From contig JAAUPE010000012.1 of the NCBI GenBank assembly GCA_012034595.1, positions 1 to 64,000 on the forward strand: a stretch of DNA of 64,000 nt, written 5' to 3'. The stretch is from Calothrix sp. CSU_2_0 (GTDB taxonomy: Bacteria > Cyanobacteriota > Cyanobacteriia > Cyanobacteriales > Nostocaceae). This document shows positions 8,001 through 59,839 of the stretch, in pieces (the first letter of the stretch is position 1; every line of letters starts with the position of its first letter). The translations under genes were made by a program, and so were the position numbers. Under the pieces are notes generated by a model, which ran no database searches, was not told where the DNA came from, and was given only the letters and a program-made list of their open reading frames with translations.

Positions 8001-9776
8001 TAAATGGTGAACCGAAAGCTCTGTTTCCGTAGCAATTAATACCGCAACATTACTACCCTCCTTAATCCCCCCATCTTGTAAAGCGCGATCGGCAACTTTC
8101 AATAAGAGTAATTGTTGCGGATTCAACTTTGCTAATTCATTGGGTGGAATCTTGTAAGCTAATGTATCGACATCAAAATTTTGAAGATATGCTCCCTGGG
8201 GTGCATTTCCCCCTTCGATTCCATACTGCTTGAGTAAATCTGCTTGCTTTTCCACACCATACCAACGTTCTGCTGGTAAAGGGATAAAATGCTGTGTTCC
8301 GTCATAAATACTCCGCTCAAACGCATCCAACCCATTACAATTACCAAAGAAAGCATCCATCCCCACGATCGCAATTTTTGTTGGGATTAGTGGTTCCTCA
8401 GAATAGGCTGGGTGTGTTGTCATACCTTGCTCTAAAATGATATGTGCATTAGTACCACCAAATCCAAATGCACTCACAGCAGCACGCTTTACAGGTGCTT
8501 TACTTGCCCAGTTGGTTGCACTACGAACAACATTTTTTGGGGAAATAACGTTGCTTTCCGTTCCCAAGGTTTCCTTGATATTAATTGTTGCGGGGATAAC
8601 CCCCTTAGACATGCTCAGAAGCACCTTAGTTAACCCCACAGCACCAGCAGCAGTCAAAAGGTGTCCCACATTTGCCTTGACAGAACCAACTAGGGGTGAA
8701 GCTTGATGTTTGCCGAAGAAGGTTTCGATCGAATTAAATTCGGTGGTGTCACCAAGTAAGGTACCTGTAGCGTGACACTCCATGTAATCAATATTTTTTG
8801 GGTTGAGATTTGCCTCTGCATAAGCACGTTCAAATGCGAGAACCTGTCCTTTGGAGTTGGGACTGAGTAAGTGTTTACCCCGTCCATCGTTAGAAAGTCC
8901 GTTACCAGCTACGACTGCGTAAATTCTGTCTCCATCTCTGACGGCATCGCTGTAACGCTTCAAGACAAAGATTCCCGCACCTTCAGCAGTGATTAATCCT
9001 CGTGATGATTTGTCAAGGGGACGACTAATATCGTTATTTTCGGGGTATCCTTGGATACTAGAAAATAGCATTCGTAAAAATAATGGATCGGCTGCGCTAA
9101 TTCCACCTGCTAGCATTATATCTGCTTTATGAGTCCACAAATAATGGGATGCTAATCGAATTGAATATAATGGTGAGGAACAAGCTGCATCAATCGAGTA
9201 ATGAATATCTGATAATGCCAGTGCCTGAGCAATAATTGCTGCTGGCAAATCTGAAATCATTGCGTTATGGGTTGAGGGAATATTGTTAGTGGGTAAGTTC
9301 CCTAAATCGAAGTCATTTTTTTGGAGTAATTCGCGAATTGCTGGGGTGAGAATTTGCTGATAAATGGGGGCAAATAGTTGATTTGATGCTTTTGTTGGTA
9401 AGGATAGAGTTCCTAAGATGACTCCGCATTTGGCAAGGATTTCTGGATTGGTTAAATAGCCACAATCTCGTAATGCTTGTTGGGCTACATATAGGGACCA
9501 TTTGAGGGTATTGTCGAGGGTTTCGAGGAAGTCGGCAGGTAGTTTGTATCCTTTACTATCGAATTTAAAATCGCGAATAAATGACCCTTTTAAGGAGTAG
9601 ATTTTATCAGGTTTGCCTTTTTTCGGTTCGTAGAATATGTTTGGCTCTACTCCGATTTCTTCGGCTGTAATTGTTGATGTTGAGTCTTTTTGTTCCATTA
9701 AGTTATGCCAAAATTCGTCGGGGTTTTTGGCATCTGGGAATAAGCATGAATATCCGATAATTGCTATTTTTTCCAC
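5070..9776 (-). CDS. hglC: HglC: KS-CLF-AT polyketide synthase subunit
   Basis: The 1568-residue multidomain enzyme starts with a ketosynthase (residues 1-450) whose active Cys is in DAACSSPLYS and whose His residues lie in ECHATGTLLGD and KANVGHLLTAAG. A second KS-like domain (about 465-925) has TVTAGENSTF where the Cys should be, so it is probably a chain-length-factor partner. An acyltransferase-like domain follows, with GYSLGE near residue 1147. The C-terminal 180 residues are linker-like and end in a helix with a HTVFLNNRQEY motif also found twice in HglF. The KS-CLF-AT order resembles PfaC/PfaB of PUFA synthases. Located between hglD and hglA; intact. Confidence 0.92.
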   Translation of the reverse strand: MEKIAIIGYSCLFPDAKNPDEFWHNLMEQKDSTSTITAEEIGVEPNIFYEPKKGKPDKIYSLKGSFIRDFKFDSKGYKLPADFLETLDNTLKWSLYVAQQALRDCGYLTNPEILAKCGVILGTLSLPTKASNQLFAPIYQQILTPAIRELLQKNDFDLGNLPTNNIPSTHNAMISDLPAAIIAQALALSDIHYSIDAACSSPLYSIRLASHYLWTHKADIMLAGGISAADPLFLRMLFSSIQGYPENNDISRPLDKSSRGLITAEGAGIFVLKRYSDAVRDGDRIYAVVAGNGLSNDGRGKHLLSPNSKGQVLAFERAYAEANLNPKNIDYMECHATGTLLGDTTEFNSIETFFGKHQASPLVGSVKANVGHLLTAAGAVGLTKVLLSMSKGVIPATINIKETLGTESNVISPKNVVRSATNWASKAPVKRAAVSAFGFGGTNAHIILEQGMTTHPAYSEEPLIPTKIAIVGMDAFFGNCNGLDAFERSIYDGTQHFIPLPAERWYGVEKQADLLKQYGIEGGNAPQGAYLQNFDVDTLAYKIPPNELAKLNPQQLLLLKVADRALQDGGIKEGSNVAVLIATETELSVHHLQQRWNLDWQVKEGLIAGEISLPGEKVTQLETVVKDGIHNPVDTSEYVSYIANIMASRISALWDLSGPTFTVTAGENSTFRVLEIAQNMLTTGEVDAVLVGSVDLAGSLEHILLRNQLAPMNTGAKTLSYDQKANGWNVGEGAGAVVLKRHDVAIANQERIYAVVDGISFSQQYTTENNFDKLEQSLVTPDPSQVHQVCTSALQVANVQASDVEYVEVYGSGVIQEDDAEIAGLMQAYSVGGNGLSCAIGSVKSNIGHTYTASGIASLIKTALCLYYRYIPATPKWTGVKNPQVWEGSPFYVASESRPWFLGKDAKKRVAAINGMSINGTYAHLILSEAAEQPERQSQYLQQTPFYLFPVGGSNLAELLTQLENLRNLITKDSHLNQLASQTFTTFQTRGKSEYTLAIVGRNQTELTKEIDNAVKGITKAFDTGEDWLTPLGSYFTPKPLGKDGQVAYIYPAAVNSYIGIGRNLFRLFPRVHEDTALKSLYSVVADVSRLVFPRSLNKLSTRQLENLEKQLLDDSLAIFETDMAFARLITTIIRDDFQVQPKYVFGYSLGETSMMSSTGVWSDFSQGIKAFHTSPLFGDRVSGAKNAVREYWGMAKVDHAEDDSFWSTYLLMAEPDKVRESLKNEPRVYLTQINTPEEVVIAGDTQGCDRVIKSLGCNAFRAPFNHAIHNEAMRSEYGEIARVNTLPTVNLLGVKFYSSAEYQPIELECDRIADSIAKCLCEPLDFPRLINQVYNDGARIFLETGSGNICSRWIDKTLEKKPHITIPLNRRGVDDHTSIVRALAKLLSHQVPLNLAPLYSIEKVSSKPSKANMKTVTVGGDSIVEKILTSENRQIFQNLSIETPKVSIKAGKSNFKQQETIKKQEELPMKKVTNNSLGSNEDIKFEELSGIVKSESFLHLPITQNSETKNYRSHLSQSHLKQLTANSYKVTQNHTVFLNNRQEYSKQISEIIQLQLACAENLLCDRE

Positions 9777-37455: not shown

Positions 37456-37971
37456 TAGAAATTAAAAATAAAGTATTCCCAAAAATGTCTGGGTAAAATT
37501 CCCAGCCATGAATTGCTAACCCAGAATAATACAGCAATATTATTTAACTTGCAAACATTTCTGCAATTTTTGTACTTTTGGTGAAAACAATCAAATTTTT
37601 AGCAATATTAATACCGCAATTTCACGACCAAAAATACATTACCTTCACCATAAAGTAAAAAGCCAGAATGTAGAACGCAAAATTGAATAATTATACCAAT
37701 TTGAAAAAACAACGCGACAGTATAGATATTTGTAGAGACGTAGCAGTGCTACCTCTCTACCATTGGATGTGTTGCAATCATTATTTGAATTGGTATCATT
37801 AACATAAATAACTTGATTTTCCCAATATATAAGGATGGACAATGTGCCCATCCTCGAAAAATGTACTTTATTTACAGCAGAAGTCAGAAGTAAAACAGCT
37901 TTATATATGGCTTTTGGATTGTTTAACTGTACCTCATATAATTGCAATCTACTGTAGTTTGTATTCCGAAA
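37456..37971. other. intergenic region carrying a MITE-like copy
   Basis: About 515 bp. Contains the inverted-repeat element at 37693-37796 and a hairpin-like word GGATGGACAATGTGCCCATCC at about 37832-37852. No gene; the 100-codon frame on the minus strand only crosses the repeat. Confidence 0.55.
37693..37796 (-). mobile_element. MITE-like element, copy A
   Basis: An approximately 103-bp element bounded by imperfect terminal inverted repeats ATACCAATTTGAAAA and TTTGAATTGGTAT, with an internal palindrome (GTAGAGACGTAGC...). It is inverted relative to copies at 45900-46002 and 59626-59728, which it matches almost base for base. It carries no gene and is presumably moved in trans. Confidence 0.8.
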
Positions 37972-40111: not shown

Positions 40112-41654
40112 TCAAGCATTCACAAGCATAAACTTTCTCATTGAAGCTTTGAGGAATTCACCCAGCAAATAACCTCTACTGTAGTTTGTAGGTGTGGTAG
40201 TTGCAGCAATTGCCTGATTTACTTGATATCCTTGCTCTTGCAGTACAAAGGAAAAGTCTTTTTGAAGAGTATCGTGTAAATAATATTTCTCTGCATTATA
40301 GTATCGCTCGAAGAATAATTTATACAATCTCACCTGCTCATGCAATCCACTAGAGTGAGATAAAGGATTTTTCTTCCGTTTGAGAATGTAATTTGGTAGC
40401 TCTTGTTGAAATGCTTCTCGCAAACACCACTTTTCTACTCCATCTTTAACTTTCCAGTCTCGTGGGGTACTTAAAGCTATGCGTACAAGTTCACTGTCTA
40501 AAAAAGGTACTCGTGTTTCTACCTGGAATGCCATACTGCACCTATCCACTCTTTGCAATTCAGTGCGGTGGAGGTTCATTAATTTGTGCAAAAATAACTG
40601 TTGTAGTTCCGCGACAGGAATCTTGAGTGCATACATATCATAACCACCAAAAAGTTCGTCGCTACAATCTCCCCCTAATACAACTTTGATGCCTGCTGCG
40701 TGAATTTCCCGATATAACTCTGTTGTGATGACTGCGTTGATAATATCCCCATACTCAGTTAATTCCGAAATTGCGATCGCTGTTTTTACATCAGCTAGTT
40801 TGATGTCATTTTTTCCTAAAGGAATGACAACTTGCTTAATGGCTTTTTCTTGACAAAACCGTTGTGATATCTCGAAATCTTCGCTGTGATTAGTACCAAT
40901 TGTGAAGGCAGTAATATTTGGGTGAAATTTAATTGCTTGACTTAAAACAATAGAACTATCTAATCCACCGCTATAGATAATACCAATTGGTAAGTCGGTA
41001 TTGACACGTTTTTTTAATTGCGTTAACTGTAGTCTCGCGGAGTTGTGCTAAAAAATCTTCTAATTTCCAATTATGGTTAATATACTGGGGGGTAAAATAA
41101 CGTCTGGGTTTTCCTGTTTCAGATTTCCAATGTCCTGGAGGAAGAGCTTGAATTTTCTGATTTAAGAATGTCAATGCTTTTAACTCGGATGCAATGTATA
41201 TTAAACCGTCATCTTCGACATAATATAAAGGAACAATGCCAAAGCGATCGCGAGCTAAAAATATCCGATTTTCTTTAATACTAACAATTACAAATGCAAA
41301 CTGACCTTCAAAAAGTTGCAAGCATTCTTCCCCGTACTCTTCAAATGCATGAAGAACGGTTTCGGTATCACTTTCTGTTTTGAATTGATACTTATTTGCT
41401 AGCTTAGATTTAATTTCATCAAAGTTAAATATTTCCCCATTGAAAACAATAAATTTATCACCCGTCTGATTAAATATTGGTTGAATTGCACCTTCTCGAT
41501 CGATGATTTTTAAACGCTGAGTTCCAGCTAAAGCTATTTCACTACTATAGGTTTCTCTCACCTCTCCTCGCAATGCGATCGCATTCATCATCTGTATAAA
41601 TGATGATTCTTTCTGAATGGCTTGTTCCCCGAAAATGACAGCAATTCCACACAT
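40112..41654 (-). CDS. asparagine synthetase-like amidotransferase (one frameshift at 41009-41015)
   Basis: The N-terminal class II glutaminase domain begins with the nucleophile Cys2 (MCGIAVIFG) and has FIVFNGEIFNFDE and ESDTETVLHAFEEYGEECL. The synthetase domain (YSGGLDSSIVLSQ pyrophosphate loop, VLGGDCSDELFGGY) continues in another frame after a seven-base homopolymer. Removing one base, or adding two, restores about 513 residues. This is somewhat shorter than housekeeping AsnB and closer to AsnB paralogues of secondary-metabolite or peptide pathways. It directly follows the DUF5715 gene (22 bases), so the two probably form an operon. Confidence 0.83.
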
Positions 41655-42920: not shown

Positions 42921-42965
42921 TCAATTTTTAAATATTAATATGCTGGATAGTAATAAAGGGTGATT

Positions 42966-43435
42966 TCCTCCATGTTCAGGATTAAAAAATGCCGTTCCCA
43001 CGCTCAAATCAAACAGCAACATAATCGCACCCGCAGTTAATGCAGGTAATCCAAATAACTGAATAATCTGAGCGCTGAAAACAGCCCAAACGAATAGGGG
43101 CATCCGAAAGAAACCCATTCCAGGGGCACGCATTTTGACTATTGTAGTCACAAAGTTTACACCCCCCATGATTGAGGAGACACCAGAAACTGCCACCGCA
43201 AGCAACCAAATAAACTCACCATTAATTAGGTTGCCTGTGGGATTTTGGATACTAACTGGAGGATAAGACCACCAACCAGCTTGTGCTGGACCACCGGGTA
43301 CGAGAAAACTTGCCATTAACAATGCACCGGATACTGGAACCATCCAGAATGCAACCGCATTGAGACGGGGGAATGCCATATCTCTCGCACCAATCATTAA
43401 GGGTACGAGGTAATTGGCGAATCCCACAAGTGAAG
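42966..43435 (-). CDS. ctaD: ctaD, second segment (cytochrome oxidase subunit I, broken at both ends)
   Basis: The segment encodes about 157 residues of heme-copper oxidase subunit I, from SLVGFANYLVPLMIGARDMAFPRLN through four membrane helices to GTAFFNPEHGG. Family members continue with a YQHLFWFYSHPAVY-like motif bearing heme-copper ligands, but here the frame runs into unrelated codons and stops at 42921. Its 5' end is the 14-bp repeat 43422-43435 shared with the first segment at 53.7 kb; joining there restores one frame. The C-terminal half of the protein (about 300 residues) is nowhere in the window. Confidence 0.9.
43422..43435. repeat. direct repeat (att core), left end of the ctaD element
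   Basis: TCCCACAAGTGAAG, identical to 53744-53757. On the coding strand it reads through the Ser-Leu-Val-Gly codons of ctaD. An inner inverted half-site ACAAGGGT is at 43441-43448. Confidence 0.88.
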
Positions 43436-43769
43436 AGCGCACAAGGGTAATTAAGGGAGCAATTGAGAGCAATTAACAACAGAAGTTACAACTACAAAAA
43501 ATGGACGTTTTGTAACTATTGTGAGGGCTTAGTTTCAAGATAAAAGTTTTGTTCTTCTTTCGCGATCGCTTGTCAAATCCAACAAAATTTTGCAACAATG
43601 CTGCCATCGAACCGAGCAGATATTTTTTGAAAGCGGTTATTATGAGAACGCTGGTAACGTTACAGGATAAAATATAAAATAGATGTTATTTGCGACAGCA
43701 CTAAATCCCAAGGGAATATGCGACGCGAACGCTATCGTAGTTATACTTCAACAAGCCAGAGGGAGAAAT
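43436..43769. other. left interior of the ctaD element
   Basis: About 330 bp containing the inner att half-site ACAAGGGT (43441-43448). An in-frame upward extension of the GFA gene to 43683 is open but lacks coding character; nothing else is recognised. Confidence 0.5.
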
Positions 43770-44192
43770 ATGAATAGTATTAATATTGTCAACGGTAGCT
43801 GTCTGTGTAAAGCGGTAAGCATATCCACGAAAAAGATGAGTAATTTTATGGGAGCTTGTCATTGTGGTATGTGTAGAAAGTGGGGTGGAGGAGCTTTTTT
43901 AGCAGTTGACTGTGGTAATGAAGTTAGTTTTGAAGGTGAAGAAAATATCGGCGTTTATCAATCGAGTGCATGGGCAGAACGCGGATTTTGTCAGAAGTGT
44001 GGTAGTCATCTATTTTACAAATTGAAACAAAATAACCAATACTTCATTCCTGTTGGACTCTTTGATAATTGCGAAGGTCTTATTTTCGAGCATCAAGTTT
44101 TCATTGACGAAAAACCTGAATATTATTCTTTTGCAAATGACACTAAAAACATGACAGGAGCAGAATTATTTGCACAGTTTGAATCGACATGA
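43770..44192 (+). CDS. GFA-domain (CENP-V/GFA) zinc protein
   Basis: 140 residues of the glutathione-dependent formaldehyde-activating family fold. Zinc ligands are in GSCLCKAV, CHCGMCRKWGGGAF and FCQKCGSHLFYK. Start chosen at 43770, where GGGAGAA sits just upstream, instead of the longer frame from 43683. The biochemical role of most GFA proteins is unproven; carbon-sulfur or glutathione adduct chemistry is suggested for the family. First intact gene inside the element. Confidence 0.85.
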   Translation: MNSINIVNGSCLCKAVSISTKKMSNFMGACHCGMCRKWGGGAFLAVDCGNEVSFEGEENIGVYQSSAWAERGFCQKCGSHLFYKLKQNNQYFIPVGLFDNCEGLIFEHQVFIDEKPEYYSFANDTKNMTGAELFAQFEST

Positions 44193-44361
44193 GACAACTA
44201 ATGAATTTAATGCATCAACCTTTAGTATGAGATTTTGAACAAATAATTACTCTTTAATCTCAGCAATTAGATACTTGGAAAAAGAGTTGCTCAAATGTTT
44301 CAATACAATGTAGCTTTTGTAACGTGAATCATTTTGAGCTTCTCGTAGCAATTTTTATCTA

Positions 44362-44646
44362 ATGGAAAATACATTATTCGATCGAACCTTCCGTGATGGT
44401 GATGGCAAAATTGTTTTAGCTCAGATGCCAAACCTACCCATTATTGTCTGGTTAACGGCTAGTTTACTGAAATTGGTTTTTACAACAGGCGAAATTAATA
44501 CAGGGTTAGACGTATTAGCAAATGGCTCTTTATTTACTTGGGCATGGCTAGAATTATTTCAAGGCGTTAATTATTTTCGCAGAGCGTTAGGTTTACTCGT
44601 GCTTATTGGTATTTTAGTCACAAAAATGTTAGTGAGCTTACCTTGA
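44362..44646 (+). CDS. conserved small membrane protein
   Basis: 94 residues with two to three hydrophobic helices (LPIIVWLTASLLKLVF, LDVLANGSLFTWAWLELF, ALGLLVLIGILVTKMLVSL). It resembles uncharacterised cyanobacterial membrane proteins. Located in the element after the GFA gene, same strand. Confidence 0.65.
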   Translation: MENTLFDRTFRDGDGKIVLAQMPNLPIIVWLTASLLKLVFTTGEINTGLDVLANGSLFTWAWLELFQGVNYFRRALGLLVLIGILVTKMLVSLP

Positions 44647-44712
44647 AGGGGTTCTGTTCCAAGAGAACGTTGGTTCCGCTTCGCAATAGCTCCATTTTGC
44701 CTCCCAAGGCAT

Positions 44713-44783
44713 TAGACATCTCCATAAATTAACCTGAAATGCTTGTAGCATCGTGGTCAAATCTGGATTATTGGAGATGTCTA
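44713..44783. repeat. 12-bp inverted repeat pair
   Basis: TAGACATCTCCA (44713-44724) and TGGAGATGTCTA (44772-44783) form a perfect inverted pair. They may be the ends of a small decayed insertion. The minus strand across 44644-44860 is open for about 70 codons without a start, possibly another gene remnant. Confidence 0.5.
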
Positions 44784-44874
44784 TTGGGAAATTAGGCACT
44801 GTAAAACGAATCGAAAGTCGTCCCCAGGTATTACTTAACTTGCCAGAAATGTCTTCTCGTGCAGTGTCACACTA

Positions 44875-44900
44875 CACTTATAGGTTTGTCTATAAGTGTG
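44875..44900. repeat. 10-bp inverted repeat (ACACTTATAG/CTATAAGTGT)
   Basis: A perfect 10-bp stem with a GTTTGT loop just downstream of the orphan signal peptide reading frame (which runs on the minus strand). Could be a terminator-like or operator-like structure; no T-run. Confidence 0.5.
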
Positions 44901-44920
44901 TATAGTTGTCTACTTTATTG

Positions 44921-45013
44921 TTAACTAAGCACGACCTCATCTGCGATCGCAATACTTGGTGCGATCGCGAAAACAAATGCCATACTGCCAATTATTAGTT
45001 GCTTCCGTTTCAT
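44921..45013 (-). pseudogene. orphan signal peptide (truncated exported-protein gene)
   Basis: A 30-codon frame encodes MKRKQLIIGSMAFVFAIAP and then SIAIADEVVLS, a textbook Sec signal peptide with a cleavage site, and then stops. Two HIP1 octamers lie inside it. It looks like the first 30 codons of an exported protein whose remainder was deleted. Confidence 0.6.
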
Positions 45014-45291
45014 CGCATTCCTCGCTGGTAGTGAGCATAATTTATAACACCACACAGAGATAATACAGCTTGCTAGCAGAAATGGATACATGGGTATATT
45101 CCATAAATCAAAAACCCAGCCATTATGACCGGGTTTGAGTTGGAGTATATCCCCGTGGGTTAGTTATATAAGTTCGTTGTAGTCGCTTTTCTCGATCGTG
45201 ACGAAGAACGAAATTTATATCATCTTCGGATGAAGCTGCCCATAATTAAATAAGAATTTTTTTATCCAGCTTCAGAGAAAATTGGCATTGT

Positions 45292-45702
45292 TTAGAAACT
45301 GCTCACTAGTAGACGATTTAATATAGCTTGTCCCGAAGGATGATATATTTCCAAACGAATAACATCTCGTTGCTGTGGTCGGTAAGAAACTCTATAGCTA
45401 TATCCGTCCTTTTTCCAGGTATAAACTTGGCGTTTTTTATCTCCAGATTTTGTTACCTGACTGCTGGCAATAATCTGCTGTGTTTCTAGGTGAATGCGCT
45501 CAAAAGTATATACTCCTTTATATCTTCTGAGTTGAACACCCCATTTATCATCCCGAAAATAGCCACTAGGGTAATCAAAATTACTTGTAGTCGCTTGAGC
45601 TTTTGCTGAATATACTTGGGCAGATACAGGTGAGATAACGCTTGTCAAGGAAGTTAACAATGCAATCGCAGTCAATGAAGCAGTAAGAATTTTAGTTTTC
45701 AT
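45292..45702 (-). CDS. exported hypothetical protein
   Basis: Start taken at MKTKILTASLTAIALLTSLTSVISPVSAQ, which is a signal peptide; the longer frame to 45750 adds a basic leader. The mature domain of about 108 residues is a small beta-rich protein (GYFRDDKWGVQLRRYKGVYTFERIHL, YTWKKDGYSYRVSYRPQQRDVIRLEIY). Not recognised. In the element, on the strand opposite to the GFA gene. Confidence 0.65.
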   Translation of the reverse strand: MKTKILTASLTAIALLTSLTSVISPVSAQVYSAKAQATTSNFDYPSGYFRDDKWGVQLRRYKGVYTFERIHLETQQIIASSQVTKSGDKKRQVYTWKKDGYSYRVSYRPQQRDVIRLEIYHPSGQAILNRLLVSSF

Positions 45703-46114
45703 TTTCGTCAATATATATGGTGTAGAACGTTTTCCGATTAAGAGTTTCAATTAATCTCTATACCTACTTATAGGTTTGATTTCGATCGATTATGCAGTGT
45801 TGAACTCTGAAAACATTCCACTCGACACAAAACAATTTTTACAAATGCGATAAATGATGAATCTGCCGAAAACGAGCTTGCCTACTGGATTGTTTGCTTA
45901 TACCAATTCAAATAATGATTGCAACACATCCAACGCTAGAGACGTAGCAATGCTACGTCTCTACAAATATCTATCTGTCGCGTTGTTTTTTCAAATTGGT
46001 ATTATCATAGCCATCTTCGCTTTTTAGGTTTTATTTTTAATTTGCCGCTAGTAAAAGTAAATATTCCCGAAAGAAAAAGTGTTTCTCCCGGAAGTTAAAC
46101 TTATGAGTACGATT
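45703..46114. other. non-coding interior with MITE-like copy
   Basis: About 410 bp; the only identified structure is the MITE-like element at 45900-46002. Confidence 0.55.
45900..46002 (+). mobile_element. MITE-like element, copy B
   Basis: Nearly identical to copies at 37693-37796 (inverted) and 59626-59728. Ends ATACCAATTCAAATAA and TTTTTTCAAATTGGTAT form terminal inverted repeats; the centre is a near-perfect palindrome GTAGC/GCTAC. This copy lies inside the ctaD element, so the family moved after or before element insertion. Confidence 0.8.
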
Positions 46115-46999
46115 TCAAGCAGACCAAGCTTCACGGAAGTCTGCGTACAAACTCAGCCCACCATCAATAAATAATGTTTGCCCAGTTATATATGCTGCTT
46201 CATCAGATGTTAAAAAAGCTACAGCCGCAGCCATTTCTTCGGAAGTTCCAGCACGACCCATCGGAATGTGACTTTCCACAACAGCCTTCTGTTCGGGGTC
46301 ATTTGTCCAAGATTCGTTGATCGGTGTGATGGTTGCACCAGGTGCGATCGCTAATCCTAAACCAAAACTACCAGTGGCATGAGAACGCTCTTTTTCAACT
46401 CGATAAAATCGCTCAAAAATATGCGGTAAATCTGCTGCTGCAATACCAATACCGTTATCTTCAACTTGAATAATACAAAAACAAAAATCTGTCGAAAGGC
46501 GTAAATTTATTATTCCCCCAGCAGGTGTATATTTACGAGCATTGCCAAGTATATTTGTCACTACTTGACTGAGCAAATCCGAGTCTCCTCTAACTATAAT
46601 AGGTTGAGAAAAAGCTTCATTATTGTCAGTTATATCGTTAACTTTAATTGTTTCAAATTCTGATAATTTACTTAGCTTTTCTGAAGGAAGTAAGCCAAAA
46701 AGTTGTCTCAATTGACCTGATGCATCATACCAACGAGCAGAAACGACTTCGCTATCTTGAGGTGGTGGATTATTTCCCAAAAGCGGCACGTTACTTAAAT
46801 CTACGTGCTTTTGTTTTCTATCATCTTCGCACTGTATTGAAGATGCCATCACTTTTGCTTTTTTGTACAGCAAAGTATCTATTACTTCTAACTGGTCAAC
46901 CGCTTTTTGATAATAAATTACTCCAGCAATAACTACCAAAATCATGCCCATTGAAAGAGTAAACCAACGGGCTAAATTGCGACGACTGCGGTTAAACAT
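46115..46999 (-). pseudogene. chimeric histidine kinase fragment fused to an SDR C-terminus
   Basis: Residues 1-115 are the membrane helix and sensor part of an RppB/NrsS-like kinase (MFNRSRRNLARWFTLSMG, RWYDASGQLRQLFG). The dimerisation/His-box domain is missing. Residues about 130-220 are the ATP-binding part (VVTNILGNARKYTP, VEDNGIGIAAADLPHIFERFYR, FGLGLAIA). From IAPGATITPINES on, the last 75 residues are the tail of a glucose 1-dehydrogenase-like SDR (RAGTSEEMAAAVAFLTSDEA, GQTLFIDGG). The junction falls on a HIP1 octamer GCGATCGC (46344-46351). Neither activity should work. Confidence 0.82.
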
Positions 47000-47008
47000 G
47001 TTACTGAT

Positions 47009-47653
47009 TTATTTCGGGTTTATTCGATATCCCATGCTGTAAACTGTTTCGATCCAAGTATCAGCATCTAATAGTGTCAATCGTTGCCGTAATCGACGAA
47101 TTAAAGCTGTAATCGCATTACTTTCGGGTTCGCTACCCCACTCCCACAATACTCGTTCAATCTGTTCACGACTAAGAATTTGCCGAGGATGACGCATTAA
47201 ATATTCGAGTAATTGAAACTCACGGGGAGATAATTCGACTTTTGTTTGTTGGCGTTCAATTTCGAGCGTTGCTTTATGCAGATATAAATCTTCAAGTACA
47301 AGTTTGTCATCTTTCTGTAGAGGTAGTCTTCTTCCTAAAGCCCTTACCCGTGCCAGTAACTCAAATATATCTGTAGGTTTTACTAGATAATCATCTGCTC
47401 CTGCATCTAAACCGATAATTTTATCTGTAGTTGTATCTTTGGCAGTTAGCATCAGCACGGGCGATATCTTACCATAATGTCGATACTGACGGCACAAATC
47501 CAACCCACTCACATCAGGCAACATCCAATCTAGAATCAACAAGTCATAGTCGCGTTGCGAGATAATCCATTGCGCGATCGCACCATCTTCCACTGCATCA
47601 ACAACATGTCCTGCATCTGATAACGCTGTATGAAGAGGTTCGAGTTGTTCCAC
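47009..47653 (-). CDS. OmpR-family response regulator with lost N-terminus (RppA/NrsR-like)
   Basis: 214 residues from a GTG start. The receiver retains the phospho-acceptor Asp (DLLILDWMLPDVSG), Thr (LMLTAKD) and Lys (YLVKPTD), and a winged-helix DNA-binding domain follows (VELSPREFQLLEYLMRHP, SNAITALIRRLRQRL). The true start is gone: in frame upstream, codons for LLVEDD run into TGA, so the Met-Arg-Ile of the family and possibly the acidic Mg-binding pair are not translated. It sits ten bases before the broken kinase. Probably inactive or altered. Confidence 0.75.
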   Translation of the reverse strand: MEQLEPLHTALSDAGHVVDAVEDGAIAQWIISQRDYDLLILDWMLPDVSGLDLCRQYRHYGKISPVLMLTAKDTTTDKIIGLDAGADDYLVKPTDIFELLARVRALGRRLPLQKDDKLVLEDLYLHKATLEIERQQTKVELSPREFQLLEYLMRHPRQILSREQIERVLWEWGSEPESNAITALIRRLRQRLTLLDADTWIETVYSMGYRINPK

Positions 47654-47660
47654 GTCATCC

Positions 47661-47858
47661 TCAACTAAAAGTCAGGATAATGAAAGGAAATGTAAAAAAT
47701 GTGAGAATTGGTAGTAAAATAGCATTCAAAATTCCGAAAACAGCAGCCGATATTAGTGCTTTTCCAAAACCATCAACTTCAATTCCCAGAAAAGGTAGTC
47801 GGGAAATAATTAAAAAGCTAACAGCAGTGATTAACCAAGTGAGGATGATACCAGTCAT
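47661..47858 (-). pseudogene. truncated phage-holin-family (4-TM) protein
   Basis: 65 residues: MTGIILTWLITAVSFLIISR and FGKALISAAVFGILNAILLPILTFFTFPF are the first two to three helices of the small four-helix membrane family common in cyanobacteria. The frame then stops exactly where the response-regulator coding sequence (CTTTTAGTTGAGG) begins, so a deletion has fused the two genes and removed the C-terminus of one and the start of the other. Confidence 0.7.
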
Positions 47859-47991
47859 AATAATTCCTCGCTATAGAATTGCTAGAGTCTACTTTATTTA
47901 GTATGGAAATAAAATGTGACTCAAAAGTGACAAGCATCAACAAAATAAATTAGTCTTAGGATTTCGAGTACTTGTGTGTACTCTGTCTTAT

Positions 47992-49338
47992 TTAGTTTTT
48001 ACGCTCAGAATTGTGAACTAGATGGTTATCATCTACCGATGGGAAACCATGCAACCTTACAGTATAAATATCTGTTGGCATTTCAATCCCCGCTTGCGTT
48101 AATGTTTCTTTAATTACCTGTGCGACTAAAGAAGTTATTTCTAGAAAAGGTAAACGCTGAGAGTTAACCCAAAAACGTACTTCGACATTGACTGTACTTG
48201 CTGCAAGTTCCCGTACTAAAATATCTGGTTTGGGGTCTTTTTCTACTTCTTTTATTTTTAAAATTGCATCATTAATTATTTGTTTTACTCTAGTAATATC
48301 TGACCCATAGTCAATACCAATCATAATCGAACTACGGCGACAAGTACAAGCAGTATTATTTGTAATAATAGCAGTAAAAACTTCTTGATTGGGGATATAA
48401 ACAACCCGTCCATCATAGGTTTTTAAAGTTGTGGCTCTTAATTGAATTTGGGTAACTGTTCCTTCAAATTCTTTAATAATAATTTGGTCTCCCAATCTAA
48501 AAGGACGGGAAGCAAGTAAAATAACACCAGAGAAATAATTACTTAATACATCTCGCAAGCTAAAACCAATTGCTACACTTGTTAAACCTAATGTTCCAAT
48601 CAATGTAGCAAGATCGAGTCCTAAAACTCCCAAAGCCAGAATTATTCCCAGTATCCACACACCACCATATCCTAAGCGACTGACAAGGATTTTGGAATTG
48701 CGATCGACTTCCCAATGTTGTGCCCCTAGCAAGGTAAAACGACGCACAGTAGCAGCAATTATCCAAGTTATAATTATTGCTAATAATGCACCTAAAAAAG
48801 AAGGTAGGTTATCAATAGTATCTCGTTGAAATTCGCGTACAGTTGAATATAACCTTTGCCCAACATCAATTGCTAGCGGTGGTTGCTCAAATGCCTGGTT
48901 TAGCTCGTCTGCCCACTGTTGTGCAAGGGTTTCGACTCCAGTATTAAAATCTTGAGCATCCTGTTGGGTAATAGTGATTAAAACCCGGTTTCCTACTTGT
49001 AATGTGGCAATTCCTCGTGACGTATCAGTTACAACAGTCACACTTCTGCCGATTTGCGGCTGTGCCAAAATACCTGCAATGCGACGGTTGACTATTTGTG
49101 CCCGTTGTGGAGCGGTAACATCTCCAACACTACCAATTTGAAATATAGGCTGCCCCCTAACAAGAATATCTGCAAAAAATAGTCCATCAGTTGATACTTC
49201 TGTGTTGGAGGATTGAGGTGTAATAGGAGTAATTGGGATATTCTGCGTTAACCCTTGAGTAGAGGGTAGTATGGTTAGGAAAACTATTGATACGATCGCA
49301 CCTAATTTACGTTTGCTAATTGGAAATTGAATATACAT
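47992..49338 (-). CDS. mechanosensitive ion channel, MscS family
   Basis: 448 residues. Signal/leader (LGAIVSIVFLTILPSTQG), a periplasmic domain (about 30-165), then three membrane helices and the MscS pore/beta domain: TLGLTSVAIGFSLRDVLSNYFSGVILL, RPFRLGDQIIIKEFEGTVTQIQLRATTLKTYDGRVVYIPNQEVF. The C-terminal alpha-beta domain is complete. Releases solutes on hypo-osmotic shock. Apparently intact within the element. Confidence 0.88.
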   Translation of the reverse strand: MYIQFPISKRKLGAIVSIVFLTILPSTQGLTQNIPITPITPQSSNTEVSTDGLFFADILVRGQPIFQIGSVGDVTAPQRAQIVNRRIAGILAQPQIGRSVTVVTDTSRGIATLQVGNRVLITITQQDAQDFNTGVETLAQQWADELNQAFEQPPLAIDVGQRLYSTVREFQRDTIDNLPSFLGALLAIIITWIIAATVRRFTLLGAQHWEVDRNSKILVSRLGYGGVWILGIILALGVLGLDLATLIGTLGLTSVAIGFSLRDVLSNYFSGVILLASRPFRLGDQIIIKEFEGTVTQIQLRATTLKTYDGRVVYIPNQEVFTAIITNNTACTCRRSSIMIGIDYGSDITRVKQIINDAILKIKEVEKDPKPDILVRELAASTVNVEVRFWVNSQRLPFLEITSLVAQVIKETLTQAGIEMPTDIYTVRLHGFPSVDDNHLVHNSERKN

Positions 49339-49497
49339 CTGTTAGATAAGTATCTCCCGGCACTTTTTCGGGTAGAATAGCGATTTTGACTAATCCTAGC
49401 TTTTCTCAGCAGATAATATATCTAGCTGTGGTCTTTGCTCTAATGATAACTTTTATGATTACAATACTTACATCTCTCTATTATTTAGTTATATATA

Positions 49498-50382
49498 ATG
49501 TTTGAACGAGTATTAATTTGCACAGATTTTTCTGATGGTTTATACCGTCTAACACATTTTGTTTCTAGTCTTGCGATCGCAGGAATAAAGCAAATTGTTT
49601 TTCTGCATACTGTTCCTCTGTGGGAAAAAGGTGTTATTCCACGGGTAGATAGCGAGAAAGTAGAACAAGCTCAAACCCGATTGCGAGAAGCTGTTGGTAA
49701 AAATCCGACTGATGATATAGAAGTAAAAATAGAAGTACAATCGGGAAAGCCAGTCGCGACAATTCTTAAAGTTGCTCAAACCTACCAGTCTCAATTGATT
49801 GTAGTAGGTTCTCAAAGTCGCAGTTCGCTGACAGAAAAAGTCGTGGGTAGCACAATGGTTAATTTATCCCGTCAAACAAAAATTCCTCTATTGATAATGC
49901 GTCCTCAGTTAATCTCTGCTTATACAAATGAAGAATTAACACTCCGTTGTCAGCATCTTTTTCGCTCTTTGCTACTTCCCTATAACGGTAGTCAAGTAGC
50001 AAATTATCTAGTGCAACAAGTAAAGCAATTGGCTCAACAACAATCTGGTAAATTTCTCCAACAATGTAAACTTTGCTGGATTTTAGAAAATAGTGGTCGT
50101 CGAGAAGCACCAGTGAAAATCCTACCACAGCAGGCTGACAAAACCCTATCTCAAATAAAAGCTGATTTGGAGGCAGTCAATTTGCAAGTGGAGACAGAAG
50201 CTAGGGAAGGTTCATCTGTCAACACTATTTTAGACATGGCAACAATGGCAGATATTAGCGCGATCGCAGTGTCTTCGGGAACGATAGGTAAGCTTCAAGA
50301 ATGGTTAATTTCCAGTTTTACGGCTGAAATATTGCGTCAGAGTTGGTATCCTGTACTCTTTTTCCCATCCCAAGATAGTTAA
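49498..50382 (+). CDS. tandem universal stress protein
   Basis: 294 residues with two Usp domains. The first has MFERVLICTDFSDGLYRL and LIVVGSQSRSSLTEKVVGSTMVNLSRQTKIPLLIMRP, including the G-x2-G-x9-G[ST] ATP-binding pattern. The second (about 155-292) is more divergent (IAVSSGTIGKLQEWLISSFTAEILRQSWYPVLFF). Cytoplasmic, divergent from the MscS gene by 160 bases. Intact. Confidence 0.85.
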   Translation: MFERVLICTDFSDGLYRLTHFVSSLAIAGIKQIVFLHTVPLWEKGVIPRVDSEKVEQAQTRLREAVGKNPTDDIEVKIEVQSGKPVATILKVAQTYQSQLIVVGSQSRSSLTEKVVGSTMVNLSRQTKIPLLIMRPQLISAYTNEELTLRCQHLFRSLLLPYNGSQVANYLVQQVKQLAQQQSGKFLQQCKLCWILENSGRREAPVKILPQQADKTLSQIKADLEAVNLQVETEAREGSSVNTILDMATMADISAIAVSSGTIGKLQEWLISSFTAEILRQSWYPVLFFPSQDS

Positions 50383-50469
50383 GTAATCGTGCAGAACTAT
50401 TTACACATAAGTATATAGTCTGGATAAGGGTTTCATACCTTAATGTTGTGTAATTAATTTACGACAGTA

Positions 50470-50640
50470 ATGGCGCAACAAGTAGCATTATTACCATCTG
50501 TCACCCTAACATCTCAAATTTTCTTTGCTACTTTTTTTGGAGCATTGGGGTTACTTATGGCGTTACCTTTGGCAGTAGTTGTTAAAACCTGGATCGAAGA
50601 AAGTTTGTTCAAAGATGTTATGAATAGATGGCAAAATTAA
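50470..50640 (+). pseudogene. C-terminal fragment of an AI-2E-family transporter
   Basis: A 56-codon frame encodes VALLPSVTLTSQIFFATFFG, then ALGLLMALPLAVVVKTWIEE and SLFKDVMNRWQN. This is the last two membrane helices and tail of AI-2E (PurR-type) permeases, whose family has about 350 residues. Nothing in frame upstream encodes the rest. Another deletion remnant in the element. Confidence 0.7.
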
Positions 50641-50723
50641 TCAATCTCATCCTAATTTCAGATGACAGCAAGCCAATAGAGAGACTTTAATCAGCGTCAG
50701 CTAGCTAATTAAGGAGTAAAGCC

Positions 50724-51716
50724 TTGCCTAATATCCTTCGAGAACGATTTCATAATTTTCGGAACAAACAGTTGCAAATACTTGATATTCAAGAACTACA
50801 AGCAGAATTACTTGCAGAATCAACTTTAGATTCTTCTTACCTAATTTTGGTTATTGGCTCTTGCGCGATCGCAACTTTTGGCTTGCTATCCAACAGCGCT
50901 GCTGTCATCATTGGTGCCATGATTGTCGCTCCTTTAATGTTGCCAATTAGAGGCATTGCCTTTGGTGCGTTACAGGGTAATCTCACCCTGTTTCGTAAAG
51001 GCTTGATTGCTTTAACATTGGGTACTCTACTGGCAATTTTAATGGCTTGGTTTTTGGGTATGGTTGTTGCTCTACCTAACTATGGTAGTGAAATTCTGGC
51101 ACGTTCAAGACCAAATTTATTAGATTTAGGAATTGCTGTCGCAGCTGGTTGTATCAGTGGATATGCCAAAATAGAACCAAAAATATCTGGTAGTTTGGCA
51201 GGAACTGCGATCGCTGTTGCTCTCATGCCTCCAATTTGTGTAGTTGGCTTAGGTTTATCGCAAGCAAATTGGTCTTTAAGTATAGGAGCATCGATACTTT
51301 ATCTTACCAATTTGTTGGGTATAGCTTTGTCCTGTATGTTGACATTTTTGCTGGCAGGATACGCATCATTTAAAAATGCGCGAAAACCTTTAATTTTGGC
51401 TTTCGTTTTAACAGGATTCTTATTGATTCCTTTAGGTGTAAGTTTTGCTCGACTGATACGACAAGCACATCTGCAAAACAGTCTTGAAAAAGCATTATTA
51501 AATAGAACTGTCACCTTTCAAAAATTAGCGTTACTTAGAACTGAAACTAATTGGTTAGTAAATCCACCTGAAGTCCGTCTGAATGTGCGGGCAACAGCAC
51601 CTGTCACCCCCAGGCAGGTACAATTATTGGAAGAATTTATTCAACGAGAAACTGGACAGTCTTTCATTCTGATTTTTGAAGTTGGTCAGGTGGAAGAGGT
51701 ACGAAATTCTAATTAG
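50724..51716 (+). CDS. DUF389 (TIGR00341-like) membrane protein
   Basis: 330 residues. The DUF389 core has LAESTLDSSYLILVIGSCAIATFGLLSNSAAVIIGAMIVAPLMLPI, then IEPKISGSLAGTAIAVALMPPICVVGLGL. About six helices are followed by a soluble alpha/beta tail (about 245-330, VRLNVRATAPVTPRQVQLLEEFI). Function unproven. Start is a TTG at 50724 with AAGGAG eight bases upstream (50711). Intact. Confidence 0.8.
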   Translation: MPNILRERFHNFRNKQLQILDIQELQAELLAESTLDSSYLILVIGSCAIATFGLLSNSAAVIIGAMIVAPLMLPIRGIAFGALQGNLTLFRKGLIALTLGTLLAILMAWFLGMVVALPNYGSEILARSRPNLLDLGIAVAAGCISGYAKIEPKISGSLAGTAIAVALMPPICVVGLGLSQANWSLSIGASILYLTNLLGIALSCMLTFLLAGYASFKNARKPLILAFVLTGFLLIPLGVSFARLIRQAHLQNSLEKALLNRTVTFQKLALLRTETNWLVNPPEVRLNVRATAPVTPRQVQLLEEFIQRETGQSFILIFEVGQVEEVRNSN

Positions 51717-52022
51717 TAAAACAGTACAGAGAGTAGAGAGACAAAGGGTAAAACTAGTAAGTAGTGGTGCAAAAATATCTATACATCTCGAAAACCCCAA
51801 ACCCTTGGGATTGCTACTCTACCCTTCGGGAACCCTCTACCCTGCGGGAAGCGCAGAGCGCAACGAGGGAACGAGAAGACAGGGAGTGTCTAGCTTACGT
51901 CGCAATCACATATATATTTAATTTTGCCTAACCACTTATTGTCGGAAAAATTGCGATCGCGAGTAACAGACAAACTTTCGGATTTCCAGTAAAACTGGGA
52001 CAATGAAACGCTACAGAACCCT
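51717..52022. other. spacer with extragenic repeats
   Basis: About 306 bp. Contains CCCTTCGGG and CCCTGCGGG hairpin words at 51821-51850 and AACGAGGGAACGAGA-like tandem words, a common cyanobacterial repeat; no gene. Confidence 0.5.
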
Positions 52023-52235
52023 ATGAACCGAGTAAAGCCAGATAAAGAGCCGGAAATATTGTTTCTACCCAAAACGAACGAGACATTACCACAAGCTTTA
52101 CTGAGATTGGCTTTGCTGTATCAAAAAATAAAACCGCTAGGTTTTGATACAGAGATAAACAAACGTATTATGACTAACCCAGAACTGCTACCTCAATACA
52201 TCAATCAGGCTAATGGAGATGACACACCTGTTTAA
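52023..52235 (+). CDS. small hypothetical protein convergent with the recombinase gene
   Basis: 70 residues, charged and probably helical (ETLPQALLRLALLYQKIKPLGFDTEINKRIM). Its last 48 bases overlap the 3' end of the recombinase gene on the other strand. No family recognised. A small gene beside a serine integrase is where a directionality factor is often found, but nothing in the sequence proves that. Could also be a chance frame. Confidence 0.4.
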   Translation: MNRVKPDKEPEILFLPKTNETLPQALLRLALLYQKIKPLGFDTEINKRIMTNPELLPQYINQANGDDTPV

Positions 52236-53567
52236 AATTTTGACTTCTTTAACAAACTTTCTATAAAGCTCCTTTTTAATGGTGTCTGGCATCGCTTTAA
52301 AAAAAGACTCATCTCCGAAGGTATCAACCAAATCATTTTGCAGACTCGCTCCAAAATTGACTACGGTAGTTGTCTGTTGTTGAAGTTGTTGAATTCTTAA
52401 TATTGTTTTATCAATTGCCTCTGCGATAATTGAATCTTGGGGAAGGTGCTGCAATACTTCAAGTCGAGTCCTTAATTCAGTAATTTCCGGTATATCCTCT
52501 TGTTGAGATTGCCCAGTTACAACATAATTTGTTAACTCACTTGTCCTTTTCGTCAGAGCGCGATCGACCGATTTAACTACAGTTGCCAGTGGAACCGCAG
52601 TTTTATTCTCACAAGCTGACGAACCGTAAATACGACGACGTTTGCAACGGATTCCCATCGAGCGTTTCTTATCATGGATGTAGCACTTAGCACCACAGCA
52701 ATCACAAAAAATTTGCCCCGATAGTAAATGCATACCTACATGACTTTTGCTCGCACCTTCAAAATTCTTACCCCAGAGTCGCTGGTTTTCAGATAACCGT
52801 GTTTCGATTTTTTCATATACTTCTTGGCTTATCAATGCAGGGTGGGTATCCTTCCTGATATCCCACTTTTCCGGGTTGACCCGATTCAATTTGACGTTGT
52901 ACCTAGTATGTCCTCGTAATGTTGGGTTCCTCAGCCAAGCACGCAGTCCTGACGGAGAAAATTTAATGTTGTATTGTCCGATAAAATGCTGAATTGCGCC
53001 TCGCAGAGATGCTTTCTCGGATAGGAAATATTCGATAATTTCATAGGCAATCGACCAATTTGTCTTGCCACTAGATTTATTTATCCTCATGTCGGGTGCA
53101 TACTTTTCGTCTATCCGGGCATACCCAAAAGGAGGTTGAGGGCAGGCTTTATTCATCTCCCGAAAATGCTGTAACCCGTGGTTAACACGGCTTTGCAGCA
53201 GCCTAGATTCAAATTCGGCTAGTCCTGCCATCTGATTGAGGGAAAACCATCCAAAGGGGCTGGATGGGTCATCAACAGGGGCATCCAGGACAATAAGTTT
53301 TATCTTCAAGCTTTCAAGTAAACCGACTGTTTTCGCAATAGTTATTACCGATCGAGCCAATCTATCGATCCGAGTAATGACGATTTCGGTAATTCGATTT
53401 TGACGGCACATCGCAAGCATTTTGTTAAAGTTCTTCCTGCCATCGTTCCTTCCAGAATCAATATCGCTAAACACTAGCGAACAGCCAGCTTTCTCGATTC
53501 GAGCTACCTGTTGTACCAGCGCATCTTCTTGCTCGAATGTACTAACACGACAATAACCTACGCGCAT
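52188..53567 (-). CDS. large serine recombinase (XisF-type) of the ctaD element
   Basis: 459 residues from MRVGYCRVSTFEQEDALVQQ. The resolvase domain has the nucleophile Ser in YCRVST and the Arg residues of ITRIDRLARS. A recombinase domain follows (PPFGYARIDEKYAPD, SPSGLRAWLRNPTLRGHTRYNVKL), with a Cys4 zinc ribbon (FCDCCGAKCYIHDKKRSMGIRCKRR, then SACENKTA) and a coiled coil near residue 370. The longer frame to 53633 adds a non-conserved leader. Its gene starts 177 bases inside the right att repeat, as in other interruption elements, so it is the likely excisase of ctaD. Confidence 0.92.
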   Translation of the reverse strand: MRVGYCRVSTFEQEDALVQQVARIEKAGCSLVFSDIDSGRNDGRKNFNKMLAMCRQNRITEIVITRIDRLARSVITIAKTVGLLESLKIKLIVLDAPVDDPSSPFGWFSLNQMAGLAEFESRLLQSRVNHGLQHFREMNKACPQPPFGYARIDEKYAPDMRINKSSGKTNWSIAYEIIEYFLSEKASLRGAIQHFIGQYNIKFSPSGLRAWLRNPTLRGHTRYNVKLNRVNPEKWDIRKDTHPALISQEVYEKIETRLSENQRLWGKNFEGASKSHVGMHLLSGQIFCDCCGAKCYIHDKKRSMGIRCKRRRIYGSSACENKTAVPLATVVKSVDRALTKRTSELTNYVVTGQSQQEDIPEITELRTRLEVLQHLPQDSIIAEAIDKTILRIQQLQQQTTTVVNFGASLQNDLVDTFGDESFFKAMPDTIKKELYRKFVKEVKILNRCVISISLIDVLR

Positions 53568-53743
53568 AATTTCCTTTGACTTACATCTTTTGCCATTCTC
53601 AACAAGAGCTAAAAAGTTGGGTTTCTCAACCACAAATTAGATTTTGATGATTAGTTATTCTCAATAAACCCGGTTTTTAGTCAGGTACAAGATATTAGTT
53701 AAACTGTCGTATTATTATTTTTTTATAAAAATGACCCTTGTAT

Positions 53744-53757
53744 TTCCCACAAGTGAA
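53744..53757. repeat. direct repeat (att core), right end of the ctaD element
   Basis: TCCCACAAGTGAAG, identical to 43422-43435. The inner inverted half-site ACCCTTGT is at 53733-53740. On the coding strand the repeat encodes the tail of TFPSLVG, the last native residues before the element. Confidence 0.88.
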
Positions 53758-54041
53758 GGAAATGTCCATCCAAACAGCATGACAGTGCCATGCATGGTAA
53801 ACAATCCGTTATAAACGGTTCTATCAACCAAGTCGGATTCAGGAGTGAGTAGTTCACCCCGCATAATCATGGCGAAAATACCGCCAATTAATAGGAAAAA
53901 GAATGAGGTGACAAGATATTGGATTCCAATTACCTTGTGGTCATGACTGAAGCTAAAGTAAGTTTTCCAGGTTGTCGGAGGTTGATGATGATGTTTCTCT
54001 AAGACAACGCTGGGAAGTCTTTCAACGTTGGTATTTGTCAT
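53744..54041 (-). CDS. ctaD: ctaD, first segment (cytochrome oxidase subunit I N-terminus)
   Basis: About 99 residues of heme-copper oxidase subunit [31 protein letters not shown], then [24 protein letters not shown], the helix that carries the low-spin heme His (MHGTVM). After Val-Gly the frame enters the element and stops 30 bases on. Start chosen at MTNTNVERL; the longer frame to 54080 reads heptamer repeats. Follows ctaC on the same strand. Confidence 0.9.
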
Positions 54042-54058
54042 ATTTGGTGAATGGTGTG

Positions 54059-54133
54059 ATGGGGATTGGGCATTGGGCATTGGGCATTGGGGATTGGGGA
54101 TTGGGCATTGGGGATTGGGGATTGGGCATTGAG
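54059..54133. repeat. heptamer tandem repeats in the ctaC-ctaD spacer
   Basis: Iterated TTGGGCA and TTGGGGA heptamers (GGGGATT type) are typical short tandem repeats of heterocystous cyanobacteria. A smaller array of the same kind is at 55126-55166, upstream of ctaC. AATCCAAAAT words follow at 54149-54183. Confidence 0.8.
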
Positions 54134-59510: not shown

Positions 59511-59839
59511 GTTACAAACCTACAATTTACTTGAATTGCCAGTAGCCATCTAAAGCCACTAGCAATGTGTAGTTTGTATATACCTATCGAGGGAAACAAA
59601 TTATGCAGTATTTTGAAAAATACTTATACCAATTCAAATAATGATTGCAACACATCCAACGGTAGAGACGTAGCAGTGCTACGTCTCTACAAATATCTAT
59701 CTGTCGCGGTGTTTTTTCAAATTGGTATTACTAAAGGATTGGCTTGGAACCTCAACCCTCGCTTTACGATCGCTTGCAATTAAAAAATCTTGATTTAGCT
59801 AGAGCATTTTCACACATATATGTGTTGCTAGATTTTAGA
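59511..59839. other. intergenic region with MITE-like copy
   Basis: About 330 bp between two minus-strand genes; holds the MITE-like element at 59626-59728 and no gene. The 72-codon plus-strand frame here merely translates the element. Confidence 0.55.
59626..59728 (+). mobile_element. MITE-like element, copy C
   Basis: Same orientation as 45900-46002 and almost identical; inverse of 37693-37796. Perfect inner palindrome GTAGAGACGTAGC/GCTACGTCTCTAC. No coding capacity. Confidence 0.8.

Follow-up and report, generated by a model that had tools for sequence, protein, structure and literature searches.

The coxA element and its cargo

The window analyzed here, a stretch of 64,000 nucleotides from Calothrix sp. 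CSU_2_0, contains a 10.3-kb element (43422-53757) that interrupts coxA and that is recognizable by its direct-repeat ends and a large serine recombinase. The 13-bp repeat TCCCACAAGTGAA is perfect and marks both ends (43422-43434 and 53745-53757, in each case on the forward strand), and the recombinase gene (52188-53633, minus strand) shows Resolvase, Recombinase, and zinc ribbon matches in Pfam. Joining the flanks at the repeat restores the CoxA reading frame: the 5' part of the gene (53745-54080, minus strand) matches positions 2 to 61 of the Pfam COX1 profile, and the middle part (42921-43472, minus strand) matches positions 56 to 197. The chimeric gene described below is part of the cargo of this element, which further includes GFA, MscS, Usp, and DUF389 genes.

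In ten relatives, coxA has a related recombinase at about the same place, which is behind the 5' part in six of them and before the middle part in the other four. Those directly behind the 5' part are 69 to 71% identical to the recombinase of the window in G002, G397, G433, G458, and G447 and 60% identical in G001. We compared the stretches around the coxA recombinase of G001, G002, G397, G433, G447, G458, G470, G452, G475, and G023 with the window. The elements of G002 (about 17 kb) and G023 (about 14 kb), read from end to end, held no match to the window's rppA, rppB, SDR, holin, MscS, or Usp proteins. Intermediates of the fusion, which the first-pass annotation had suggested looking for in sister elements, were thus found in neither of these two. 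In the parts covered of the other eight elements (to the contig end or 18 to 19 kb in), neither RppB nor the SDR tail was matched, and the core of the window's repeat (12 of its 13 bases, matched exactly) occurred in none of 19 stretches from relatives. According to Hilton et al. 2016 (PMC4874684), who list coxA elements, some genes harbor several of them, and what the elements contain is dynamic, with genes being both deleted and inserted.

Several further traces of broken or repeated DNA were observed in the window. The coxA gene itself seems to be interrupted twice, judging from a 17-bp word, TGAACATGGAGGAAATC, which ends the middle part of coxA in the window (42962-42978) and, on contig C168 of the same assembly (positions 9182-9198 of stretch L193), starts the 3' part (COX1 profile 170-436); the latter adjoins a distant serine recombinase (24% identity). 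The first base of the window is also the first of its contig, so that this second element would exceed 42 kb. A plasmid of Calothrix sp. NIES-4101 (AP018275.1) matches pieces of 44523-45182 (12% of a 4.5-kb query) at 84% identity, which hints that some of the cargo came from a plasmid. A dispersed repeat of about 107 bp is present at 45898-46005, 59623-59730, and 37687-37796, with at least 39 further copies (91 to 98% identity) in the same assembly and fainter ones in both congeners. Since its ends resemble inverted repeats by eye (ATACCAATTTGAA), it is possibly a MITE. Finally, an asparagine synthase-like gene lies in two pieces (40112-40636 and 40971-41654), which correspond to GATase and to a short portion of Asn_synthase, and is perhaps also broken.

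Anatomy of the chimeric open reading frame

Positions 46115-46999 of the minus strand form a single uninterrupted frame of 294 codons, in which fragments of an RppB kinase are followed by an SDR tail, as judged from the list of open reading frames, Pfam, and NCBIfam. Residues 1 to 122 (46634-46999, minus strand) comprise the N-terminal membrane and sensor region of RppB and are 61 to 67% identical to RppB of loci L047, L042, L043, and L072. They are followed by the scar of an internal in-frame deletion, which protein alignment places approximately at 46604-46633 (minus strand) and which holds no HIP1 octamer, and by the ATP-binding part (46349-46603, minus strand), which runs to the G2 box GLGLAIA. 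The HATPase_c profile of Pfam matches residues 138 to 221 and breaks off here, at position 82 of 111 (profile 1-82), and HisKA has no Pfam match anywhere in the chimera. The remaining 78 residues (46115-46351, minus strand) are the C-terminal tail of an SDR, 94% identical to residues 192 to 269 of the L047 SDR, with residues 217 to 283 matching the adh_short_C2 profile from position 170 to its end (170-236 of 236).

The two parental parts meet in the HIP1 octamer GCGATCGC (46344-46351), identified from the sequence, the HIP1 count, and the alignment with relatives. The codons across the joint read GGT TTA GGA TTA GCG ATC GCA CCT GGT GCA, with one octamer exactly at the joint. The first-pass annotation had described a kinase G2 box running into an SDR segment at this octamer and a deleted His-box domain; codons and Pfam boundaries confirm the former, and the comparison with L047 the latter. 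The intact L047 kinase holds HisKA at 204-267 and an almost complete HATPase_c match (profile 2-110 of 111), and the intact L047 SDR spans positions 6 to 236 of its profile, versus 170 to 236 in the chimera. In the protein alignment, the octamer of the chimera lies 534 nt closer to the start codon than that of the L047 kinase, which means that about 178 codons are missing in frame, the His-box included, and that the rest of the sensor region has gone together with HisKA. RppB (NF041735) is still the nearest NCBIfam model of the kinase part, with a score of 112.3 bits against a cut-off of 400. The SDR tail contains neither the NAD site of the Rossmann fold nor the Tyr-Lys pair of the catalytic center.

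The chimera still lies directly behind rppA, the same layout as that of its parents. The response regulator gene rppA (47009-47653, minus strand) has lost its 5' end: it lacks its first residues and usual start, the listed frame begins at GTG, and the RppA model (NF041734) scores 238.3 against a cut-off of 250. Upstream of it lies a fragment of a Phage_holin_4_2 gene (47661-47858, minus strand; profile 2-62 of 105), cut by a deletion that joined it to rppA. By eye, against the corresponding two genes of relatives, this joint lies at 47668-47672, where about 5 bp (ACTTT on the minus strand) are common to both sides, and it is not at HIP1.

Parent genes and HIP1 in relatives

The octamer GCGATCGC is much more frequent in the window than expected by chance, with 47 copies against 0.28 expected, which cover 0.59% of the bases. 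It had been claimed that both parent families often carry it at the codons of the joint, and this holds true. In 121 loci searched, after removal of hits scoring no more than 85 bits and of the row of the window itself, and with identical stretches collapsed into one, 17 of 23 distinct kinase stretches have the octamer at the G2-box codons, and 37 of 88 distinct SDR stretches have it at the codons of their N-A-I-A-P-G loop. In the relatives flagged for it, the octamer has the same codon phase in kinase and SDR, GCG ATC GCN, so that a joint at the octamer keeps the frame.

The two genes are also neighbors in relatives. Of 27 loci that we chose for a comparison of gene order (L056 and L135, as well as L118 and L139, being the same contigs, judging from their length), 21 held both genes; rppB lies upstream of the SDR gene on one strand in 17 of these, and the order is reversed in the other 4. 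Fifteen syntenic loci were retained, excluding L044 (kinase match ending before the G2 box) and L056 (duplicate), and the distance from joint codon to joint codon ranges from 1.1 to 8.1 kb among them. Looking for the octamer at the equivalent codons of both homologs, as the first-pass annotation had proposed, we found it in both genes, and in the same frame, in four loci (L047, L072, L085, and L091), while the other 11 lack it at one or both joint codons. In the four loci with both octamers, 8 to 11 bases are common to the pair of joint stretches; the kinase frame of L091 is itself broken.

The closest to the window among the loci holding the cluster is L047, a Spirirestis rafaelensis metagenome-assembled genome (MAG), which shows the best or joint-best identity for RppA, both RppB parts, and the SDR tail (by bits, L042 scores slightly above it for the kinase C part). 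Its kinase and SDR joint stretches both read GCGATCGCA and lie 4.7 kb apart, in the order rppA, rppB, an open reading frame with no Pfam match, an amino acid permease gene, a methyltransferase gene, a gene for a fasciclin protein, and the SDR gene. Identity between the chimera and its nearest parents amounts to 67% for the kinase N part and 94% for the SDR tail, and the intact ancestor of the window's own locus was not found.

Rarity of the joint and integrity of the assembly

A degenerate pattern for the exact joint, searched in 388 genomes of the order that were drawn evenly from a larger group, was matched in the window's own genome alone; since the pattern allows no mismatch, a fusion with its joint at another place in the two genes would escape it. 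The exact joint was likewise not found in viral contigs. With the whole chimera as the query, matches were obtained in 27 of 60 relatives and in 80 listed loci of named genomes, none of which, except for the window, covered both halves in one stretch. No plasmid record held the fused stretch (best cover, 12%), and no paper was recognized as treating an rppB-SDR fusion. The same fused architecture in many strains, which the first-pass annotation had named as evidence against a deletion product, is therefore not what these genomes contain, and we rejected the idea of an established fusion gene on the grounds of one genome in 388 and no viral contig. Its second objection would be parents without the octamer at the joint, and against this stand the kinase and SDR relatives that do carry it there.

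Searches of the window's own assembly addressed the halves that a fusion on paper would have left behind. The L047 SDR query (E values up to 1e-20) returned, besides the chimera tail at 94%, paralogs of at most 43% identity. The L047 RppB query (E values up to 1e-15, a threshold at which a short kinase end would escape notice) returned middle matches of at most 39% and one C-terminal piece of 52% on contig C158, compared with 67 to 68% for the window's own parts. A left-over SDR or RppB half at parental identity was not found in these searches. In the same genome, ten sites fit the G2 pattern with the octamer. Eight of them read GLGLAIA, seven running on as normal kinases and one being the chimera; in the two others the box is GLGFAIA, and of these one belongs to an unrelated membrane-like protein, while the other is ambiguous.

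Origin and fate of the fusion

What the sequences show is the anatomy of the chimera, the synteny of its parents in relatives, the octamers at the parental codons, the rarity of the joint, and the lack of an SDR front half left elsewhere in the assembly. How the deletion came about, when it took place, and that function was lost is what we infer from them. The ancestral locus would have held the rppA-rppB pair followed by an SDR (glucose-1-dehydrogenase-like) gene in the same orientation, as in many relatives, with the octamer at the G2 box G-L-G-L-A-I-A of the kinase and at the N-A-I-A-P-G loop of the SDR, read as GCG ATC GCN in both. The loss of one to several kilobases between these two direct repeats, through slippage during replication or through single-strand annealing, the routes open to short repeats in general, would then have left a single octamer with the two genes fused in frame. 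Other deletions, which did not involve HIP1, would have removed the HisKA region and fused the holin gene to the start of rppA. The frame would have been kept because both octamer copies read GCG ATC GCN, which need not point to selection. The product, devoid of the phospho-acceptor His domain, a complete ATP site, and the SDR active site, would be a relic in the neutral cargo of the element. A cargo that is under no selection and eroded by several deletions fits this anatomy, and the position of the chimera within it explains why such decay was tolerated. We consider this account as a whole, from the deletion between two HIP1 copies to a likely non-functional relic in the coxA element, to be probable, and the step that made the joint is well supported by the comparison with relatives.

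Two other explanations concern the joint itself. As the assembly is a draft of 306 contigs, two contigs could have been misjoined at a common octamer. In that case, however, the front half of the SDR gene should be left over elsewhere at parental identity, and likewise RppB, and the absence of such halves speaks against misassembly, as do the two further deletions that adjoin the joint and that lack such a word. In addition, some 10 common bases are too few for the overlaps usually required in assembly. We thus judged a misjoin to be very unlikely. Alternatively, the parts may have been joined through another short homology or by blunt joining, with the octamer present in one parent only. This is suggested by its absence from 51 of 88 SDR and 6 of 23 kinase stretches and by the 11 of 15 syntenic loci that lack the pair. 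On the other hand, L047, the nearest syntenic parent, has the octamer in both genes, and a random joint would rarely fall inside an octamer that makes up about 0.6% of the window's bases, which renders this alternative unlikely compared with a deletion between two HIP1 copies.

Whether the chimera is a relic can be approached through the constraint on its parts. In pairwise comparisons, pN/pS is 0.074 for the SDR tail versus 0.072 among relatives and 0.38 for the kinase N part versus 0.376; it is higher in the kinase C part (0.383 versus 0.312). The mean pN of the window lies above that of 21 of 30, 17 of 23, and 18 of 23 relatives. Both joins being in frame and the halves showing little relaxed constraint, either the fusion is recent or its product is used. 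In the latter case, selection would maintain the fused frame as a functional gene, whose product might act, for instance, as a membrane-bound decoy for RppA or as a new regulator. The open frame of 294 codons with two in-frame joins, the small excess of amino acid changes, and the retained position directly behind rppA would all agree with such a role. Yet the protein has no HisKA, an incomplete HATPase_c domain, and no SDR catalytic core, rppA itself has been deprived of its 5' end, and the joint occurs in one genome only of 388, all of which makes a selected function quite improbable. Hence, the chimera is most likely a non-functional relic, and its pN/pS values suggest that, measured against these comparisons, the fusion probably took place recently.

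HIP1 as a proposed deletion hotspot

The first-pass annotation had gone one step further and regarded the chimera as direct evidence that the abundant HIP1 palindrome can act as a deletion hotspot producing in-frame chimeras. The part of this claim that stands is that a deletion between two HIP1 copies probably gave the in-frame fusion, in line with the order, orientation, and frame of the parents in relatives. As direct evidence of a hotspot, in contrast, a single event picked out after the fact does not serve. HIP1 would be a true recombination or deletion hotspot if a protein, or methylation (of GATC or CGATCG), favored pairs of HIP1 over repeats of equal length. To see how far the joint departs from what ordinary short repeats offer, we counted the words common to rppB and the SDR gene at the 15 syntenic loci; coming from related loci, these counts are shares and not tests. 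HIP1 is contained in 26 of 347 common words of at least 8 bp (7.5%), in 19 of 98 of at least 9 bp (19%), and in 20 of 204 of those in the same frame (9.8%). Given a short-repeat deletion between the two genes, the odds of a joint at HIP1 are therefore roughly 1 in 10, or 1 in 5 for words of at least 9 bp. The longest common word is an 11-mer other than HIP1 in L047 and the joint pair itself in L072.

In favor of a hotspot, the joint falls exactly at HIP1, and HIP1-linked recombination, inversion ends, and plasmid fusion have been suggested in print. Thus, Gupta et al. 1993, as cited in PMC6331805, described a deletion involving GCGATCGC in a cyanobacterium and proposed that HIP1 promotes gene rearrangements, and part of a comparison of Synechococcus elongatus strains places HIP1 ahead of an inversion and suggests a plasmid fusion. 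Against it, the window offers one event noticed after the fact and a word that makes up only 26 of the 347 available. Two more deletion scars lie within 1.4 kb (the His-box and holin-rppA deletions), neither of them at HIP1, and the coxA element retains 10 HIP1 copies. One scar of three at HIP1 is no evidence for a hotspot, and three scars are too few to exclude one. HIP1-promoted excision reportedly has similar frequencies in Escherichia coli and Synechococcus, in the words of the title of Robinson et al. 1997, which would mean that no special cyanobacterial machinery is needed. A deletion census attempted on 200 kb each of G452 and G475 yielded only 13.6 kb of alignment, with 2 and 6 HIP1 copies. 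Overall, the hotspot claim is unsupported by the window, and we regard a true hotspot as improbable, although it is compatible with a deletion between two HIP1 copies, an explanation that leaves the cause of the deletion open. It is tempting to go further and to speculate that HIP1, encoding Ala-Ile-Ala at conserved loops of unrelated families such as the G2 box of kinases and the N-A-I-A-P-G loop of SDRs, provides a network of same-frame joints and thereby an exon-shuffling-like device that generates in-frame chimeras at an appreciable rate; this seems extremely unlikely to us.

The chimera thus offers a clean natural example of a probable deletion between two copies of an octamer that many cyanobacteria contain in huge excess, with parents that can be identified in relatives. 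As it stands, it suggests no more than that short repeats which are abundant serve in the same way as other short repeats, in a stretch of DNA whose loss would probably carry no cost. If a deletion census were to show an excess at HIP1, the long-standing question of the role of this octamer would become testable.

Comparison with known systems

The RppA/RppB system (NF041734 and NF041735) provides the best NCBIfam matches of the window's rppA and of the kinase part of the chimera, which differs from RppB in falling below the model cut-off and in lacking HisKA and the last stretch of the ATPase domain. Deletions involving HIP1 have been in print since 1993, and the chimera would be one more case. 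To the extent that the case of Gupta et al. is described in the citing article, it is alike in being a deletion at GCGATCGC in a cyanobacterium and unlike in two respects: the deletion in the window extends from one gene into another and fuses the two in frame, and it is deduced from relatives, without a parent strain. The work of Robinson et al. 1997, going by its title, similarly links DNA loss to HIP1; unlike ours, it is experimental, and we read its parity with E. coli as the ordinary behavior of short repeats.

The element that carries the chimera differs from its sister elements in G002 and G023 in its cargo, to which no match was found in either of them. In its build, it resembles the coxA and coxA3 elements of heterocyst-forming cyanobacteria, as portrayed in parts of the survey in PMC4874684: coxA is split at a short direct repeat, a serine recombinase gene lies inside, at the start of the element and in the orientation of the interrupted gene, and the gene content is variable and eroding.
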